Assembly: GCA_947378555.1 (NCBI GenBank)
Contig: CANCKM010000001.1
Coordinates: forward strand, 1 to 55,371
DNA length: 55,371 nucleotides
DNA from: Microbacteriaceae bacterium
Lineage (GTDB): Bacteria; Actinomycetota; Actinomycetes; Actinomycetales; Microbacteriaceae
Direction of reading: 5' to 3'
A model generated the notes under the pieces. That model had not been told where the DNA came from. It did no database searches and saw nothing but the letters and a program-made list of their open reading frames with translations. Position numbers and translations under genes: made by a program. Positions 11,068 to 52,630 of the stretch are shown here, piece by piece; the first letter of the stretch is position 1; each line of letters opens with the position of its first letter.

Positions 11068-11073
11068 AGCCTA
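11068..11073 (-). promoter_or_regulatory. Candidate -10 box for leaderless gmk
   Basis: TAGGCT, whose first three bases are the pyrF stop codon, ends 6 nt before the gmk GTG. No Shine-Dalgarno sequence is present in the 9-nt gap. A promoter here would separate gmk-rpoZ-coaBC expression from pyrimidine control. Confidence 0.4.
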
Positions 11074-11917
11074 ATCTGCCAGGCCGATTTGAAGTTCTCG
11101 ATTTGCCTGATCGATTGCTTCGTCCACCAGCTGTGGGCCTCGATCGCTAATGGAACGCGACACCGAGGCAATCACGTTTGCCGCAGACTCACCAAAAAGG
11201 TTTGAAATCGAGTCGAGCTTTGCCCCCTGGGCCCCAAAACCTGGCGCCAAGATCGGGGTTGGTATGGCAGGTTGCTCGGCAAGCACGCTGCCTAGTCCGA
11301 AACTCTTCAACTTCAAAGTTGCACCGATTACCGCGCCGAAGGAACCGACACTACCGGGTACGCCCGTTACCGAGTTGAGTCTGTTCAGACCAGACCAGAC
11401 GGCAGCCGCCACGGTGCTCTCGTCGACGATTGCCCGCTGAAGCGCAGCTCCCTCGATGTTCGATGTGGCAGCTAAAACTATTACGCCCTTGCCACGCTCA
11501 ACCGCTGCCGCAAAAAAGGGCTGCAGCGAATCGAAGCCGAGGTAGGGGCTAACCGTCACGGCATCGCAGATGAAGGGCGCCGATTTACCGAGCCAGGCAT
11601 CAAAGTACGCATCCATAGTCGACCCAATGTCGCCACGTTTGATGTCCATGATCGTTAGCAGCCCGGCGTTGTTTGCCTTTTCGAGCAAACGTTCAAGAAC
11701 CGCGAACCCCGCAGACCCATGACGTTCGAAAAACGAAACCTGGGGTTTTATGACTCCGACGCGCCCGATTGCTGCCTCAAGCACGGTGTTGGCAAACTGT
11801 TCTAGGCCAGCTACCGAATCGGGCAAACCCCAACTGTCCAGTTGGCTTTGGTGCGGGTCAATGCCGACGCAGAGTTGACCCTGCGTGGCAAATACTTTGG
11901 ATAACTTCGTCCCGAAA

Positions 11918-11928
<11 letters not shown>
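11071..11928 (-). CDS. pyrF: Orotidine-5'-phosphate decarboxylase, type 2
   Basis: Last step of UMP synthesis. The actinobacterial (type 2) family is shown by LCVGIDPH near the N-terminus, the catalytic [13 protein letters not shown] near residue 98, and the length of about 285 residues. The open frame extends 30 codons further upstream, but that part lies within carB. I place the start at the TTG giving [10 protein letters not shown], which aligns with the usual family N-terminus and overlaps the carB end by 11 nt. A TTG six bases upstream is an alternative. Translation is probably coupled to carB. Confidence 0.92.
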
Positions 11929-15216
<3,288 letters not shown>

Positions 15217-15217
<1 letters not shown>

Positions 15218-16359
15218 TACGCGCCCTTTACTTTAGATGCTTTGATAACTTCAACGAGGCGGTCGAAGAGGTAGTTCGAATCGTGCGGGCCGGCCGCAGC
15301 CTCCGGATGATATTGAACCGAGAAAGCCGGCAAGTCTAGGCATTCGAGCCCCTCGACAACATCGTCATTGAGCGCAATGTGGCTCACGCGCACTCGGCCA
15401 AACCCCTCGGGTGACTCAACGGCCTCGCCGGTTTCACCACCGGGTACCCGAACCGCGAAACCGTGGTTGTGAGCGGTGACCTCCACCTTGCCGGTGGCTC
15501 GATCCAAGACTGGCTGATTGATGCCGCGGTGCCCAAAGGTCAACTTATAGGTTTCAAAACCAAGTGCGCGTCCAAGAAGCTGGTTTCCAAAACAAATTCC
15601 GAAGAACGGAATCCGTTTTTGCAAGACCTCGCGAAGCAAAGCAACCTGAGCAGCCGAGGCTTCAGGGTCGCCTGGACCATTCGAGAAAAAGACAGCATCC
15701 GGGTTGCTCTCAAGCAGTTCATCCGCTGTCGCCTTGGCTGGATAAACCGAGACCGCTAAGCCTCTGGCAACCATGTGTTCGATGGTTGAACGTTTGATGC
15801 CAAGGTCTAGGATTGCCACACTTCCGACTAACTCACCCTCGGCGGCGACCGAATACATTTCGGTTGTCGAGACCTGATCGCTAAGCGATAGACCCTTCAT
15901 CTGACGAGATCCTCTTACGATGTCAAGTTGCTCTTCTGACGAGAGATCGAGCGACTCCCCCGAAAAGATTCCAGCTCGCATCGAACCAGCAGACCGGAGG
16001 TGACGGGTAAGTGCCCGTGTGTCAACGCCGCTGATTCCAACAATGTCATAGCGTTCAAGTTCGGTGCCGAGTGAGCCCTGGGCCCTGAAGTTAGAAACCA
16101 CACGGCTCGGGTCGCGCAGCACATAGCCCGAGACCCAAACTCGGTCAGACTCTTCATCTCGAGCGTTAACCCCCGTGTTGCCAATGTGTGGGGCGGTCTG
16201 CACCACGATTTGCCCGGCGTAGGAAGGATCCGTAAGGGTCTCTTGGTAGCCCGTCATACCGGTTGCAAAGACAATCTCTCCGAGAGTCTGGCCCAATTTG
16301 CCGTAGCTGTGGCCGGTGAAGACACGGCCGTCCTCCAACATTAGAACTGCTTTAGTCAT
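15217..16359 (-). CDS. carA: Carbamoyl-phosphate synthase small subunit (glutaminase)
   Basis: Class I glutamine amidotransferase subunit that feeds ammonia to CarB. The nucleophile Cys256 is in GICFGNQ and the His351/Glu353 pair in [10 protein letters not shown]. The N-terminal CPSase domain (about 1-180) carries [18 protein letters not shown]. The length is normal at 380 residues. The ATG overlaps the preceding PH-like gene by 8 nt, so it belongs to the pyr operon. Confidence 0.98.
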
Positions 16360-16858
16360 TGGTTTGCCCTTTCGATAGCAAGAGATTTGTCTGCTCGACT
16401 AACTGCGCCTTGTCAGCGTTTGATGTCACCCGAAGGTAGGTCGACAGGTTGTGGCCGTCGCGCGACCACTCGATGCTGATTAGACCATCGGTCTCGACAA
16501 CCCGATCAATCGCGGCGTTTGTTAATCCGACACCACGGATTGCGGATTTTTCTAACGCGATGGATGTTTCACCCTTGCGGTTAATTACCATTCCGTTTTC
16601 GTACACGTTCACATCGCAACTTCCGCGCATTCCCAGACCGTGCGCTGTGATGCGCTCGAGCGGGTCGGCCGTGGTTGTTGTTGCCACGTAGCGAGCGGAT
16701 ACTGGGCCAAATAGCAATCTGGAGGTTTCAAGATTCTCGGCGGGCGCTGTGAATAGTTTTGCCTGACGAGCTGCTCTTGACTTCCAAGCCAGGAAGGCAA
16801 GCACTGCGAGACCGGCGACTATGGCGCTTGCCACTAGGGCGAGGTTGTATTGCCCCAT
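16352..16858 (-). CDS. PH-like-domain membrane protein of the pyrimidine operon
   Basis: This 168-residue protein has one N-terminal membrane segment (about residues 7-26, [19 protein letters not shown]) followed by a predicted cytoplasmic beta-rich domain. Proteins of this type sit between pyrC and carA throughout Actinobacteria (Rv1382 position in M. tuberculosis) and are annotated as PH-like or putative export/membrane proteins. Its role is not known. The one-base overlap with pyrC and the 8-nt overlap with carA show that it is co-translated with the pathway, but no pyrimidine enzyme motif is visible. Confidence 0.82.
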
Positions 16859-18156
16859 TAAATCCGGCCCGCCTCTGCCACTTTGCCGTTGAGTAACGTC
16901 GCGTAGCCTCGATAAATTGTGTGGACCACCTTGCCAGGGAGCTCGAGCCCTTTAAACGGGTTATTTTCGCTCTTGGACTGTGTTTGGCCAACAACTGTGC
17001 TGGCGTTGGGGTCAATAGCAACCAGGTTGGCGACCGACCCAACTCGAATTGATTGACCTTGTTCGGTCAATCTGCCGATCTTCGCTGGGTTGACTGAGAG
17101 CACCTCGGTCAGGCGCTGCCAGTTCGACTTTTCACTCTTTATGAGAACGTCGATTGCCACCGAGGCAGCTGTTTCAAGGCCGATCATTCCGAAGGCGGCA
17201 GACGCCCACTCGCAGTCTTTGGACTCGGTTGGATGTGGGGCATGGTCGGTGGCGATGATGTCGATGGTTCCGTCGATCAAAGCCTCCCGAAGCGCCAAGA
17301 CGTCCGCTTGGGTGCGCAGTGGAGGGTTCACCTTAAAAACCGGATCGTAGGTTCTGGCCAGTTCGTCGGTAAGCAGCAGGTGATGTGGGGTTACCTCTGC
17401 TGTGACTTGCACCCCTCGAGCTTTTGCCCAACGAATAATCTCGACCGATCCGGCGGTGGATAGGTGGCAAATGTGCAGTCGGGATCCGACGTGCTCGGCG
17501 AGCAAAACGTCACGGGCGATGATCGCCTCCTCGGCAACGGCCGGCCAACCGGTGAGCCCGAGATTGGCGGAAACCTCGCCCTCGTGCATCTGGGCACCCT
17601 CGGTTAGTCGTGGCTCTTGCGCATGTTGGGCGACAACCCCATCAAAGGCTTTCACGTATTCGAGGGCGTGTCTCATTAGAACGGGATCAAAAACGCACTT
17701 CCCGTCGTCGCTAAACACTCTGACCTTCGCTTTTGAGTTGGCCATCGCTCCGATCTCGGCTAAGCGCAGTCCTTCCAGACCGACGGTCACGGCACCGATT
17801 GGAACAACATCAACGAAGCCGGCAGCCAGACCAAGAGCCTGGACCTGTTCAACAACGCCGGCGGTGTCGGCAACCGGACTGGTGTTGGCCATAGCGTGAA
17901 CGGCTGTGAAACCGCCGGCCGCTGCCGAACGACTCGCGGTCAGCACCGTCTCACTCTGCTCAAATCCAGGTTCGCGCAAGTGAGTGTGCAAGTCAACAAA
18001 GCCCGGCAGAACGATCAACCCGCTGCAGTCGATCTGCTGAGTCAACTCGCTGGCCGAGAGGTTTGGAGCCATGGCTGTGATTACCTGATCGGTGATTTCG
18101 ATGTCGAACAAGGATCCATCGGCAAGCTGCGCAGATTTGAGCAGTAGAACGGTCAT
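16858..18156 (-). CDS. pyrC: Dihydroorotase, class I
   Basis: Zinc amidohydrolase that cyclises carbamoyl aspartate to dihydroorotate. The HxH metal motif is His57/His59 in GFVDLHTHLREPG. Further ligand regions are VAQHAQEPRL, LHICHLST and IATDHAPH (near residue 305). The 432-residue length and motif pattern match the actinobacterial stand-alone PyrC. It overlaps pyrB by one base and the PH-like gene by one base. pyrD and pyrE are not in the window. Confidence 0.97.
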   Translation of the reverse strand: MTVLLLKSAQLADGSLFDIEITDQVITAMAPNLSASELTQQIDCSGLIVLPGFVDLHTHLREPGFEQSETVLTASRSAAAGGFTAVHAMANTSPVADTAGVVEQVQALGLAAGFVDVVPIGAVTVGLEGLRLAEIGAMANSKAKVRVFSDDGKCVFDPVLMRHALEYVKAFDGVVAQHAQEPRLTEGAQMHEGEVSANLGLTGWPAVAEEAIIARDVLLAEHVGSRLHICHLSTAGSVEIIRWAKARGVQVTAEVTPHHLLLTDELARTYDPVFKVNPPLRTQADVLALREALIDGTIDIIATDHAPHPTESKDCEWASAAFGMIGLETAASVAIDVLIKSEKSNWQRLTEVLSVNPAKIGRLTEQGQSIRVGSVANLVAIDPNASTVVGQTQSKSENNPFKGLELPGKVVHTIYRGYATLLNGKVAEAGRI

Positions 18157-19118
18157 TATTTGGATTCCTTATCGCCAGACAGTAAATGAAAGAGAACCGC
18201 CATGCGAACTGAGACCCCGTTGGCCACCTGCTCGAGGATGGTGGAATTGGGTGAATCGGCTGCCGAGGCGGTAATTTCTAGACCACGGTTCATCGGGCCG
18301 GGATGCATGAGCAGGGCATGGGGCTTTAGCATCGCTAAACGTTCGGAGTTGAAGCCCCAAAGTCTTGAATACTCACGCTCGGACGGGAAGAAGGCGGCAT
18401 TCATTCTCTCGGCCTGAACGCGCAACATCATTACTGAGTCGGGTTGAACTTGCCTCAGGGCCGTATCCAAGTCGAAGTGCACCGAAACTCCCCAGGTCTC
18501 GAGTTTCACGGGCAAGAGGGTCGGTGGCGCAACCAGGTGAACCTCGGCGCCGAGGGTCGCCAGGAGCTTGACATTGGATCTTGCAACTCTGGAATGCAAA
18601 ACATCCCCGACAATCATGACCTTTTGCCCGACTAAGTCTCGCCCCTTCGAATCATCGCCATAGATGCGCTTGCGCATCGTAAAGGCGTCTAGCAGAGCTT
18701 GGGTCGGGTGCTCATGGGTTCCGTCACCGGCATTAATAATCGAACCGTTTATCCAGCCACTGTGCGCCAACACATTTGCCGCCCCGCTGGCCCAGTGTCT
18801 GATGACAACGGCATCTGCGCCCATTGCCTCAAGGGTTTGGGCTGTGTCCTTGAGGCTCTCGCCCTTCGAAACGCTGGAACCCTTAGCGCTGAAGTTAATG
18901 ACATCGGCCGATAAACGTTTTTCAGCGAGCTCGAACGAGATTCTGGTTCGGGTCGAATCCTCGAAAAATAGATTGACAATCGTCTTGCCACGAAGTGTGG
19001 GCAACTTTTTGATATCGCGGTGATTGACACTCGACATTTCCTCTGCGGTGTCGAGGATTGCGATAGCCGATGCGCGGTCTAAATCACCCGCTGAAAGCAA
19101 GTGTCTAAGCTGGCTCAT
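18156..19118 (-). CDS. pyrB: Aspartate carbamoyltransferase catalytic subunit
   Basis: Condenses carbamoyl phosphate and aspartate. The carbamoyl-phosphate loop is Ser55-Thr-Arg-Thr-Arg59 in [13 protein letters not shown]; the [10 protein letters not shown] motif lies near residue 140, and HPGPMNRG near 280. No regulatory pyrI is present, which is normal in Actinobacteria. At 320 residues it is complete. The ATG overlaps the pyrR stop by 4 nt. Confidence 0.98.
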
Positions 19119-19654
19119 CCCTCAATCACCACACATTCATCGCCGTCGGTCTCAAGAAGGTGAACTCGAATTTTTTCATCTCTGGCGGTCGGCAGATTCT
19201 TGCCAACAAAGTCGGCTCGAATGGGAAGTTCGCGATGCCCACGATCAACTAGGACAGCGAGTCGGACGACCCTGGGGCGTCCTAAATCGTTTAGGGCATC
19301 CAGAGCTGCTCGAATGGTTCGCCCACTGAATAGAACATCGTCAACCAAGACGACAACCTTGTCAGCTAGCCCCTGGCTCGGAATGAAAGTTTCGGTCATC
19401 GCCCGAGTTGGATTATTTGAGAGGTCATCGCGATACATCGTGATGTCCAATCTGCCAACGGAAGCCTTTGCATCGAATGAAGGCTCGTTCTTGGCTATTA
19501 CCGCTGCTATTCTTTCGGCGAGTTTTACGCCCCGGGTCGGGATCCCAACCAGTAAAAGATCGGCTGTGCCGTGGTTGGATTCGAGGATTTCGTAAGCAAT
19601 ACGGGTTATCGCCCGATTGATGTCATCGCTGACTAAGACGGTGCGTGTTGACAC
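19115..19654 (-). CDS. pyrR: Pyrimidine operon regulator PyrR / uracil phosphoribosyltransferase
   Basis: PyrR binds pyr mRNA in the presence of UMP and also has uracil phosphoribosyltransferase activity. The PRPP motif [13 protein letters not shown] is at residues 101-113, with Asp105/Asp106. The start was placed at the GTG at 19654 (179 aa) because AAGAAGGAGG ends 5-6 nt upstream; an ATG 33 nt further upstream is in frame but lies inside the RNA hairpin described next. It is the first gene of pyrR-pyrB-pyrC-PH-carA-carB-pyrF, so autoregulation would control the whole operon. Confidence 0.95.
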
Positions 19655-19660
19655 GCCCAC

Positions 19661-19697
19661 CTCCTTCTTCGCCTCACAGGACGACATTTAAAGGATG
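19661..19697 (-). promoter_or_regulatory. PyrR-binding RNA hairpin that can sequester the pyrR ribosome binding site
   Basis: The leader reads GTCCTGTGAGGC at 19682-19671, matching all twelve positions of the PyrR binding-loop core RUCCNGNGAGGY. The flanking pair of the longer consensus (A...U) is C19683/G19670 here, which keeps pairing. CG-U-CC pairs with GG-CG around a TGTGA loop with one bulged U. Below it, TCCTT (19695-19691) can pair with AAGGA (19666-19662), which is part of the AAGGAGG ribosome binding site of the GTG at 19654. This is the arrangement expected for PyrR-dependent translational repression, reported for Mycobacterium smegmatis. No terminator-antiterminator pair is visible. 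Confidence 0.78.
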
Positions 19698-19731
19698 TTT
19701 TACCTAGTTTACGTTAAGAGTGACCCGGAGG

Positions 19732-20151
19732 CTATTTTGCGCTTCGAGTCGCCGAAATCTTTGATAACAGGCCATTGATGAAAGCCGGTGAATCATCGGT
19801 TGAAATTTCCTTGGCAAGTTCGACGGCCTCATTGATGGCCACCGCGTCAGGAACTTCGTCGTTATGAAGAATTTCCCAAACCGCAACTCGCAGAATCGCT
19901 CGGTCGACGGCGGGCATTCGATCAATGCTCCAGTCAAGGGAGTAGGTTTCTAGCAGATCATCGATCTCTTGATTCGACTCAACTACTCCGAGCACCATTC
20001 TTCGTGCATAACCAAAGATTTCATCTTGATTCTGACGATCAGCATAGAGCTCTGCAACTTCATCCAAAAGTTTGATTGGAGAGATTTTTCGCAAGTCGGC
20101 GGCGAAAACCGCATCGACTGCGCGTTTACGCGACTTAGATCTTGAACTCAC
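19732..20151 (-). CDS. nusB: Transcription antitermination factor NusB
   Basis: NusB (139 aa) forms the BoxA-binding heterodimer with ribosomal protein S10 that supports rRNA transcription. The all-helical family pattern is clear, including AVDAVFAADL near the start, YSLDWSIDRMPAVDRAILRVAVWE near the middle, and AINEAVELAKEISTDDSPAFINGLL at the end (each only partly listed here as anchors). The GTG start lies 3 nt after efp. The efp-nusB-pyr order is conserved in Actinobacteria. A 77-nt gap with the PyrR hairpin follows. Confidence 0.96.
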   Translation of the reverse strand: MSSRSKSRKRAVDAVFAADLRKISPIKLLDEVAELYADRQNQDEIFGYARRMVLGVVESNQEIDDLLETYSLDWSIDRMPAVDRAILRVAVWEILHNDEVPDAVAINEAVELAKEISTDDSPAFINGLLSKISATRSAK

Positions 20152-20154
20152 GCG

Positions 20155-20718
20155 TTAGTCGGTTACTCGACCGAGGTAGTCACCGGTGCGGGTGTCTACC
20201 TTGACTCGAGTTCCCTGTTCAACGAAGAGCGGCACCTGAATCTGGAGCCCGGTTTCAACTGTTGCCGGCTTGGTTCCGCCGCTCGAGCGGTCACCCTGCA
20301 GGCCAGGCTCGGTGTAGGTGATTTCCAAAACTACCGAGGCAGGAAGTTCGACATAGATCGGGTTCTCTTCATACATGGCAACCACTGCGTTCTGGTTTTC
20401 CAGCATGTAGTTTGAAGCGTCTCCAACGGTTGCAGTCGAAAGCGAGACCTGGTCGTAGGTACCAAGATCCATGAAAACGTAGCTGTCGCCATCGTTATAG
20501 AGATACTGCATCTCACGCTTGTCTACGTTGGCGGTTTCTACCTTTACGCCTGCGTTGAAGGTTCGGTCAACGACCTTGCCGGTTAGAACGTTCTTCAGCT
20601 TGCTGCGAACGAAGGCGGGACCCTTGCCAGGCTTGACGTGCTGGAACTCAATTACCGTCCAGAGGACATTGTCTATGTTCAATACCAGACCGTTTTTGAG
20701 GTCATTTGATGTTGCCAT
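20155..20718 (-). CDS. efp: Translation elongation factor P
   Basis: EF-P (187 aa) relieves ribosome stalling at polyproline stretches. The three-domain protein begins [15 protein letters not shown]. The functional loop is [12 protein letters not shown], with Lys32 at its tip, the actinobacterial PGKGP type that in this phylum is generally thought to act unmodified. No epmA/epmB-like modification gene is nearby. It is followed 3 nt later by nusB; a 91-nt gap separates it from aroQ. Confidence 0.97.
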
Positions 20719-21253: not shown

Positions 21254-22330
21254 CTCGCAAATCTCTTGAAAGCTGGCGAACAAAAGGTCAGTCGGTGGGG
21301 CGTTCATGATTGTCGGTTTGGCAACAGCGTCGAGAACGACAAAGCGCAGGTTTCCGGCTCGGGATTTCTTATCACGTTGCATTGCCGCCAAGAGCTGTGG
21401 CCAACGATCGGCGCGGTAGCTAATCGGCAAGCCGAGCAAAGTCAAAACGCTGCGGTGGCGTGCAACAACTTCGTCGCTTAGTCGCCCGGCCAGCCGTCCA
21501 AGCTCGGCCACGAAGACCATCCCGATGGATATCGCCGCACCGTGGCGCCACTTATATCGCTCGGCGAGTTCAATGGCGTGCCCAAGAGTGTGACCATAGT
21601 TGAGGTATTCCCTGACGCCCGATTCCTTAAAGTCCTCGGCAACCACCTTCGCCTTGATTGCAATCGAACGCTCAATGATTTCTGCGAACACCGCACTAGT
21701 CGGATCGGTGGCAAGGGCCACATCCTGCTCAATCAGTTCAAGGATGCGCTCATCGGCAATGAAGCCGTACTTCACGACCTCACCAAAACCGGCGAGAATC
21801 TCGTTGCGAGGAAGGGTTAGGAGGGCATCGAGATCGGTTATGACGGCGCTAGGTGCGTGAAAGACACCAACCAGGTTCTTTCCCTCTGCGGTGTTGATTC
21901 CCGTTTTACCTCCGATAGCGGCGTCGACCATCCCCAAAAGTGTCGTTGGGATCTGAATCAACCTCACGCCTCGCAACCAGGTTCCAGCGACGAATCCTGC
22001 GAGGTCGGTGGTTGCGCCACCACCCAACCCGATTACGGCGTCAGATCGAGTGAAGTCTGTCTTGCCCATAATCCCCCAGCAGAAGGCAGCCACCTCAACA
22101 CGCTTAGCATCTTCGCTCTCGGGGACACCGGCGAGAATTGCCTCGTATCCATCGTTAATTAATTGGTCACGCAGCAACTCGGCGGTAGCAGCTAAACCGA
22201 CCGGGTGAACGATGAGAACTTTGCGGACCGAGCCACCTAGACTCTTTGCAACCTCACCAAGCAAGGCCCTGCCGATGATCACGGGGTAAGGGTTGTCGCC
22301 GCCGACCGTAATGATTTTTGAATCAGACAT
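21251..22330 (-). CDS. aroB: 3-Dehydroquinate synthase
   Basis: Second shikimate step, an NAD-dependent carbaphosphate synthase. The nucleotide-binding GLGGGATTDLAGFVAGTW (near residue 100) and the PTTLLGMVDAAIGGKTGIN block (near 128-147) are intact, and metal-ligand regions follow (GFGEVVKYG; the LNYGHTLGHAIE His cluster near 245). 359 residues, ATG start. It lies in the aroC-aroK-aroB-aroQ cluster. Confidence 0.97.
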   Translation of the reverse strand: MSDSKIITVGGDNPYPVIIGRALLGEVAKSLGGSVRKVLIVHPVGLAATAELLRDQLINDGYEAILAGVPESEDAKRVEVAAFCWGIMGKTDFTRSDAVIGLGGGATTDLAGFVAGTWLRGVRLIQIPTTLLGMVDAAIGGKTGINTAEGKNLVGVFHAPSAVITDLDALLTLPRNEILAGFGEVVKYGFIADERILELIEQDVALATDPTSAVFAEIIERSIAIKAKVVAEDFKESGVREYLNYGHTLGHAIELAERYKWRHGAAISIGMVFVAELGRLAGRLSDEVVARHRSVLTLLGLPISYRADRWPQLLAAMQRDKKSRAGNLRFVVLDAVAKPTIMNAPPTDLLFASFQEICE

Positions 22331-52186: not shown

Positions 52187-52258
52187 TGGGCGATACTGGG
52201 TTCGAACCAGCGACCTCTTCCGTGTCAGGGAAGCGCGCTACCACTGCGCCAATCGCCC
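52187..52258 (-). tRNA. tRNA-Val (GAC)
   Basis: A 72-nt cloverleaf. Acceptor GGGCGAT pairs with ATCGCCC, the anticodon loop is CTGACAC (GAC) on a TTCC/GGAA stem, and the T loop is TTCGAAC. The discriminator is A. CCA is not encoded. It is the last of three minus-strand tRNA genes and is 63/72 identical to the plus-strand tRNA-Val(CAC). Confidence 0.95.
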
Positions 52259-52287
52259 AAATCAATCCACAATGGACCGTGGTTTGG

Positions 52288-52358
52288 AGGTGAAGACGGG
52301 ATTTGAACCCGTGTAGACGGCTTTGCAGGCCGCTGCCTCGCCTCTCGGCCACTCCACC
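52288..52358 (-). tRNA. tRNA-Cys (GCA)
   Basis: A 71-nt cloverleaf with acceptor GGTGGAG/CTTCACC (one G-T pair), anticodon loop CTGCAAA (GCA) on GCGGC/GCCGT, and T loop TTCAAAT. The discriminator is U, as expected for tRNA-Cys. The 3' CCA is encoded at 52287-52285. Confidence 0.95.
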
Positions 52359-52389
52359 GTGCTTACGCACAGGGCTTACGCCCACTGCG

Positions 52390-52461
52390 AGCGGATGACG
52401 AGATTCGAACTCGCGACCCTCACCTTGGCAAGGTGATGCTCTACCACTGAGCCACATCCGC
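52390..52461 (-). tRNA. tRNA-Gly (GCC)
   Basis: A 72-nt cloverleaf with acceptor GCGGATG/CATCCGC, anticodon loop TTGCCAA (GCC) on TCACC/GGTGA, and T loop TTCGAAT. The discriminator is U; CCA is not encoded. First gene of the minus-strand tRNA cluster; a TTGCGC and TAGAGT pair (about 18 nt apart) just upstream may be its promoter. Confidence 0.95.
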
Positions 52462-52544
52462 GTTGTCTCTTTAACAAGACTTGGATACTCTAACCCACAA
52501 AGGCCTTCCTGCGCAAACCCATCGGCTGCGTGTCGCGCTGGCTG

Positions 52545-52550
52545 TATCCT
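52545..52550 (+). promoter_or_regulatory. Candidate -10 box for tRNA-Val (CAC)
   Basis: TATCCT lies 8 nt before the mature 5' end of the plus-strand tRNA-Val. No good -35 is visible. The 97-nt space between this tRNA and the divergent tRNA-Gly must hold promoters for both directions. Confidence 0.4.
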
Positions 52551-52558
52551 AGACCCAG

Positions 52559-52630
52559 GGGCGTATGGCGTAGTGGTAGCGCGCTTCCTTCACACGGAAG
52601 AGGTCACTGGTTCGATCCCAGTTACGCCCA
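52559..52630 (+). tRNA. tRNA-Val (CAC)
   Basis: A 72-nt cloverleaf with acceptor GGGCGTA/TACGCCC, anticodon loop TTCACAC (CAC) on TTCC/GGAA, T loop TTCGATC, discriminator A. The CCA end is encoded at 52631-52633. Its 3' end lies 12 bp from the end of the converging ammonium transporter gene. Confidence 0.95.

Follow-up and report, generated by a model that had tools for sequence, protein, structure and literature searches.

Translation of pyrR in the window (the whole 55,371-nt stretch of DNA analysed) is very probably repressed by PyrR, through a hairpin that probably lies at the start of the mRNA and contains the pyrR Shine-Dalgarno sequence. This reading was drawn from comparisons of leader sequences; PyrR binding, the UMP signal and the direction of control are presumed by analogy with the PyrR family. 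According to the proposed mechanism, the base of the hairpin would be the starting point of the pyrR mRNA. At high UMP, the hairpin would be bound by PyrR-UMP, which would fix AAGGA against UCCUU and so keep the ribosome off; at low UMP, the hairpin would be free and the ribosome could open it. If pyrR is no longer translated, expression of at least pyrB, and perhaps of the remaining genes, would fall as well, through the overlaps between them. Control by this hairpin (hairpin 1) would be of a kind known from mycobacteria, and a genus-specific hairpin over the start codon (hairpin 2) would be a variant of it. The features are listed in Table 1.

Table 1. Features of the pyrR leader and of the pyr operon in the window
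Feature	Position	Strand	Basis or remark
Putative -10 box TAAACT of the pyrR promoter	19706..19711	-	TANNNT pile-up in leaders
Hairpin 1, predicted PyrR-binding hairpin	19658..19701	-	Model R2, covariation, sub-threshold RF00515
Conserved core GTCCTGTGAGGC (RUCCNGNGAGGY)	19671..19682	-	Full consensus match
UCCUU, lower-stem 5' strand (anti-Shine-Dalgarno)	19691..19695	-	Faces AAGGA
pyrR Shine-Dalgarno AAGGAGG	19660..19666	-	AAGGA is the lower-stem 3' strand
Likely hairpin 2, GG-GCGUG-UCAA-CACGC-A-CC, start codon in 5' strand	19640..19658	-	Start-region folds, frozen codons
Candidate extended hairpin 2, GAGGUGGGCGUG with CACGC-A-CCGUCUU	19635..19663	-	Freeze boundary at codon 7 UU
pyrR, PyrR regulator / uracil phosphoribosyltransferase, GTG start	19115..19654	-	NF003547, PDB PyrR chains
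pyrB	18156..19118	-	Overlaps pyrR by 4 nt
pyrC	16858..18156	-	Overlaps pyrB by 1 nt
PH-like domain protein (bPH_11)	16352..16858	-	Pfam PF25362, 91.9 bits; overlaps pyrC by 1 nt
carA	15217..16359	-	Overlaps PH gene by 8 nt
carB	11918..15217	-	Overlaps carA by 1 nt
pyrF, start uncertain	11071..11928	-	TIGR02127, 250 bits

The PyrR-type hairpin in the pyrR leader

The leader lies between nusB (stop at 19732) and pyrR and reads, on the minus strand, AACATCCTTTAAATGTCGTCCTGTGAGGCGAAGAAGGAGGTGGGC-GTG. Hairpin 1 is made up of a lower stem, an internal loop containing UUUAA, an upper stem and a loop. The original prediction had claimed a 12/12 match to RUCCNGNGAGGY, closed by a C-G pair where the longer consensus has A-U, and a lower stem pairing TCCTT with the AAGGA of the ribosome binding site, and all three features were found as described. 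GTCCTGTGAGGC at 19682-19671(-) matches the consensus in full; the core is flanked by C19683-G19670 and then by U19684-A19669; UCCUU 19695-19691 lies opposite AAGGA 19666-19662. A C-G closing pair is usual in actinobacteria (162/167 distinct leaders, with UA in 5). The first ribosome binding site is contained in hairpin 1, as this AAGGA belongs to the GTG at 19654; the first A of the Shine-Dalgarno sequence precedes the start codon by 12 nt, the commonest spacing (93 of 220 leaders), and a gap of 3 nt separates the modelled hairpin from the GTG.

The 12-mer motif alone was rejected as evidence, as it occurs 11 times in the genome (4 times for the reversed control); in the window it has two matches against 0.51 expected, a number reached by 8 of 100 shuffles. 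A second exact match to the loop motif, at 21994-22005(+) and antisense to an aroB-like ORF, was matched by no model and was taken as chance. Among Rfam families the best match in 601 nt was RF00515 (PyrR), at 33.1 bits (E 0.01), with a good alignment over the first hairpin, including few non-standard pairs, and a poor one over the 3' part that follows it. The site shares with RF00515 the lower stem CCUUU/AAGG, the internal loop, the upper stem and the NGNGA loop; RF00515 describes an attenuator-type leader, whereas the window has no antiterminator/terminator part, and for this reason the site remains below the gathering score of 54 bits. None of 20 actinobacterial loci reached that score, and pyr control has therefore gone unannotated in the class.

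A PyrR covariance model had been named as a check on the original prediction. Model R2 was built from alignment A4, which holds 46 leaders, all from outside the genus (four further non-genus leaders were omitted by oversight). When run on the window's own 1.5 Mb genome, R2 returned 19701-19658(-) as its only match, with 55.6 bits and an E of 1.8e-12. The 61.4 bits obtained at the same site with an earlier model, R1, are not independent, because R1 included the window's own leader. Neither R1 nor R2 found another PyrR site in this genome at E up to 10. These data indicate that the PyrR-type hairpin is not a chance structure.

The arrangement was then followed through the family, the genus and the phylum. 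Of 150 family genomes, 148 yielded a PyrR; one 0.9 Mb family genome, G015, which is 98% complete, showed none at E up to 0.001. The 148 family leaders, 30 of them from loci and 118 added to these, contain the window's leader (one of the 30) and two others of its genus. A strict pattern of upper stem, core and AAGG 3' strand was present in 141 of them, and in 220 of 228 leaders after the addition of 80 named loci, the two sets sharing some species; nusB lies upstream of pyrR in 59 of the 80 named loci. Four of the seven family leaders missed by the pattern were recovered by R1, three of them before pyrR (G090, G027 and G119) and one displaced (G040); in G093 and G108 the loop is, by eye, one base shorter, and in G087 no R1 match was found. 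By eye, the pyrR leader of G087 (L197) is unusual, with two hairpin-like cores. In G119 (L272 / L156) the upper hairpin is tandem-duplicated, with ca. 20 nt inserted, and in the close relatives L040, L042 and L047 the core is changed (GCAC or GCCC for GTCC) and the stem partly kept.

Within the genus, R2 matched 63 of 67 genomes, and in 62 of the 63 a gap of 2-6 nt lies between the end of the hairpin and the position, downstream of it, of the first PyrR residue; in the 63rd, G473, the site lies at a contig end, with no pyrR match. Two of the four genomes lacking an R2 match have no pyrR match either, and in the other two pyrR stands at a contig end. The genus leader set used below excludes G444, G454 and G485 (pyrR at contig ends) and L319 (no leader). 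In a comparison of 89 genomes, the position corresponding to the window's first PyrR residue lay 2-4 nt after the hairpin in three genomes of the family. In the remaining 86 it lay farther away, partly, as judged by eye, through longer PyrR N-termini. In a sample of the phylum, 161 of 296 genomes matched R1 at E up to 0.01, and these included all 26 genomes sampled from the window's class (the window's own among them). The mycobacterial arrangement is thus general in the class. Extra R1 matches in G381, G228 and G431 were weak and are probably due to chance; no pyr gene was seen by eye among the ORFs around three of them.

Pair counts were made on 211 of the 220 pattern-matching rows (9 were dropped), which reduce to 167 distinct leaders. 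The second upper-stem pair outside the core (u1) was paired in 165 of these against 138.4 in shuffled data and occurs as all four Watson-Crick types (CG 145, UA 8, AU 5, GC 4). At lower-stem positions 6, 7 and 8 pairing exceeded all 2000 shuffles; at position 4 the observed value was reached by 11 of 2000, and position 5 is mostly unpaired. Positions 0-2 are invariant across the 167 leaders, and covariation is uninformative for these inner pairs because they never vary; AAGG would be conserved anyway as a Shine-Dalgarno sequence. In alignment A2, 24 cells were changed on both sides against 8.3 in shuffles. The corresponding figures for A4, which leaves out the genus, were 21 and 8.0, with 90.6% paired against 86.1%; for two of five A4 measures, 40 and 45 of the 500 shuffles did as well. 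A first MAFFT alignment, in which the lower stem was out of register because the internal loop is variable, had been replaced by equal-length leaders. As judged from these alignments, both stems of hairpin 1 covary. The comparison with close relatives proposed in the original prediction therefore came out in its favour, the loop and the lower stem being kept and covarying. The two N positions of the loop (19678 and 19676 in the window) are correlated among the 167 leaders (TT 56, AA 43, CT 26, TA 1).

Folding, which had also been proposed as a check, gave a mixed result. Hairpin 1 was the best fold of stretches of 76, 61 and 49 nt, with weak z-scores (-1.0, -1.6 and -0.2, respectively); in contexts of 121 and 81 nt the window's RNA adopted other folds in silico, and in the 81-nt leader the lower stem had a probability of only 0.11. 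Single-sequence thermodynamics is equivocal for hairpin 1.

The pyrR start codon and the predicted mRNA 5' end

As indicated by the leader comparison, the start codon of pyrR is the GTG at 19654. The original prediction had favoured it over an in-frame ATG at 19687, within hairpin 1, and this choice was upheld by a constant spacing and by the rarity of the upstream codon. Counted from the first A of AAGG, every one of the 60 genus leaders has its assigned start (ATG, GTG or TTG) 11-15 nt downstream. Only two of the 60 (L009, which is the window, and L330) have an open in-frame ATG before the Shine-Dalgarno sequence, as do only five of the 220 in the wider set, of which the window is one. For these two reasons the ATG is most likely a chance codon. 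It does open the longest in-frame ORF; nevertheless, as the stretch before the Shine-Dalgarno sequence also evolves as paired RNA, a start at 19687 can scarcely be credited.

The putative -10 box of pyrR was recognized by a pile-up of TANNNT in the leaders. Of 208 leaders (12 of the 220 were left out for too little upstream DNA), 184 had the motif between offsets -24 and -12, compared to a mean of 19 and a maximum of 33 in shuffled sequences and to 12-16 of 208 in three control windows of equal width. At offsets -26 to -8 the count rose to 199 of 208 (shuffled mean 27, maximum 39), and it is within this wider range only that the window's TAAACT falls, at offset -10. A scan with the sigma-70 consensus found no promoter. 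With the usual spacing of a -10 box, the mRNA is predicted to start near 19699; its 5' end is thus probably at the base of hairpin 1, a position that we infer from the motif and the spacing.

Such a 5' end leaves no room for an upstream competing arm. One candidate is GCCUC (19732-19728), which would pair with GAGGC and open hairpin 1, and which does so in the best fold of 19740-19620. The arm is upstream of the predicted 5' end, however, and a longer transcript would be needed; moreover, of 59 genus leaders only 5 have GCCTC within the stretch 49-160 nt ahead of the start, and in the four besides the window it stands at a different distance. We therefore regard a role for this arm as very improbable.

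Mode of control and the pyr operon

A PyrR-type hairpin that directly hides the pyrR ribosome binding site was what the original prediction had described, and the search for terminators agreed with it. No terminator-like site was found at 19600-20200, nor did any of the 109 loci taken from the family and the named collection show one within 126 nt after the hairpin, where shuffled sequences gave 1. Transcription attenuation of the Bacillus type, in which the hairpin would act as an anti-antiterminator before a terminator, would use the same binding loop as RF00515. It also has parallels in the phylum: of 40 leaders from Actinomycetota that do not belong to the class, a strict scan detected a terminator-like site after the same hairpin in 11, against a mean of 0.13 in shuffled sequences; the 40 had been hand-picked, as rows with listed positions, from about 135 R1-matching genomes. 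In the window, with only 3 nt between the modelled hairpin and the start codon and with the terminator counts given above, attenuation is highly unlikely. Within this one phylum, one and the same PyrR site would seem to be used for attenuation in some lineages beyond the class, where terminators are still carried, and, by all signs, for translational control within it. The attenuator-type leaders share with the window the hairpin and its AAGG 3' strand, and differ from it in the terminator-like hairpin that follows. Since half a Shine-Dalgarno sequence is already present in the PyrR site, as its AAGG, the step from attenuation to translational control would be a short one. Several attenuator-type leaders outside the class (among L261, L264, L265, L266 and L344-L383) were seen to carry AAGGAG or AAGGGAG and a start codon before the terminator; perhaps these are leader ORFs under both kinds of control.

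The occurrence of AAGG as the 3' strand of the general PyrR site, even where terminators follow, means that its pairing need not serve the ribosome. An alternative is accordingly that the bulk of bound PyrR alone blocks the ribosome and that the pairing of the Shine-Dalgarno sequence is incidental; the low stability of the hairpin by itself (ca. -10 kcal/mol) would fit this as well. The outer lower-stem pairs covary, however, in leaders that use this strand as a Shine-Dalgarno sequence, and we consider a block by bulk alone doubtful, though deserving of some weight. The preferred reading, as before, is repression in which the paired lower stem itself would hold the Shine-Dalgarno sequence.

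In Mycobacterium smegmatis, a PyrR site reportedly stands at the start of the pyr transcript, with no terminator; the first ribosome binding site is said to be occluded, and an extension of this scheme to other bacteria is said to have been proposed. The window agrees with this arrangement in having the PyrR consensus with both stems before the first pyr gene, the first ribosome binding site in the hairpin, no terminator or antiterminator, and an encoded PyrR protein that scores above the NF003547 cut-off. It differs in that repression is here predicted from sequence and, for the genus, in the addition of hairpin 2 over the start codon. PMC13328217 and PMC10672894 cite Fields & Switzer 2007 (J Bacteriol 189:6236), whose title names PyrR-dependent translational repression for the pyr operon of Mycobacterium smegmatis, and PMC3766115 is a comparative study counting the pyrR motif.

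The PyrR protein encoded in the window is full-length and scored 256.9 bits against NCBIfam NF003547 (cut-off 230). The original prediction had repression passed along the operon by tight overlaps of 4, 1, 1, 8, 1 and 11 nt. The first five of these were recovered; the last, between carB and pyrF, exists only if pyrF starts at TTG 11928, a candidate start with no clear Shine-Dalgarno sequence.

An observation on the first overlap comes from the displaced hairpin of G040 (L267). In this genome pyrR, at 199-744, has no hairpin, and the hairpin (50.5 bits) is found 0.8 kb downstream of pyrR, behind an ORF on the opposite strand. There (L267 1501-1630) it heads a 27-codon ORF that starts with MAVR, as PyrR does, and overlaps pyrB by 4 nt. 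The simplest reading would be that deletion of pyrR spared its start and the coupling to pyrB; what was kept would then be the hairpin and a translated first cistron. Such a rearrangement fits coupling from the first cistron to pyrB; coupling beyond pyrB, and with it an operon-wide spread of repression, we infer from the overlaps. By eye, the opposite-strand ORF of G040 has the look of a small membrane protein.

A likely second hairpin over the start codon

A further element, missed in the original prediction, abuts hairpin 1. In most leaders of the genus the start codon is contained in GG-GCGUG-NNNN-CACGC-A-CC, and this two-hairpin leader belongs to the window's GTDB genus, the named members of which include Rhodoluna sp. 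When positions -6 to +16 were folded, 53 distinct start regions of the genus gave a mean of -9.1 kcal/mol, with 52 of them at -5 or lower; the rest of the family gave a mean of -3.1 kcal/mol, with 21 of 137 at -5 or lower. The hairpin 2 region is also the strongest of 46 start regions of the window (starts chosen by a simple rule). Codons 4-7 are largely fixed in the genus: codons 4, 5 and 6 are CGC in 52/53, ACC in 47/52 and GTC in 45/53, against pooled use of 0.56, 0.36 and 0.25, respectively, and codon 7 begins with TT in 43/52, while codon 8 is mixed again. This synonymous freeze of codons 4-7 ends where an extension of hairpin 2 over GAGGUGG would end. The extended form would compete with hairpin 1 for that part of the Shine-Dalgarno sequence; when the full leader is folded in silico, this form seldom appears (mean probability 0.10).

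Hairpin 2 is likely to be a conserved RNA hairpin. It might instead be no RNA structure at all, and represent a DNA palindrome read by a protein or a sequence conserved by shared descent. Most of the distinct genus start regions do share one stem sequence, and in-register covariation was not significant, with one pair double-changed and shuffles doing as well. Codon 13, outside the hairpin, is also frozen (GAT in 35 of 36), and not all freezing can therefore be due to the hairpin. Against these points stand the run of frozen codons 4-7, the loop of four variable bases and the presence of some G-U pairs, and the relatives with a TTG start, in which the arms are GCGUU/AACGC or GCGUUUU/AAAACGC. 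The pattern GGGCGTGN{3,6}CACGC, moreover, has a single copy in the genome, compared to 2 for the reversed control. For 13 classes of deviant 5' arm, pairing with their own 3' arms gave a mean of -9.87 against -8.18 for permuted arms (sd 0.41; 0 of 20,000 permutations, in statistics that ignore relatedness); the own arm was better than the mean of the foreign arms in 12 of the 13 classes, and better than every foreign arm in 2 of the 13. When codons 2-8 were redrawn synonymously, the null mean was -5.9 kcal/mol (sd 2.7) against the observed -9.1; 12% of single draws reached the observed mean, so that energy alone is only moderate evidence for hairpin 2. On balance, an origin of this element other than as RNA is unlikely, although far from negligible.

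If hairpin 2 is formed, the start codon would be hidden whether PyrR is present or not, and this sits badly with a simple on/off switch. At a guess, hairpin 2 may serve as a clamp, with less initiation in the basal state and tighter repression as the result. A tentative view, which we hold to be possible rather than probable, is that between them the two abutting hairpins occupy every base of the ribosome binding site, that the mRNA is closed by default, and that PyrR shifts the boundary between the hairpins and so sets initiation. We know of no start-codon clamp in PyrR leaders, and there was no such title among the matches listed. Hairpin 2 poses the question of why the start codon of a pyrimidine regulator should be buried in a genus with small genomes. 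Elsewhere in the window, four tRNA genes are clustered at 52187-52630.
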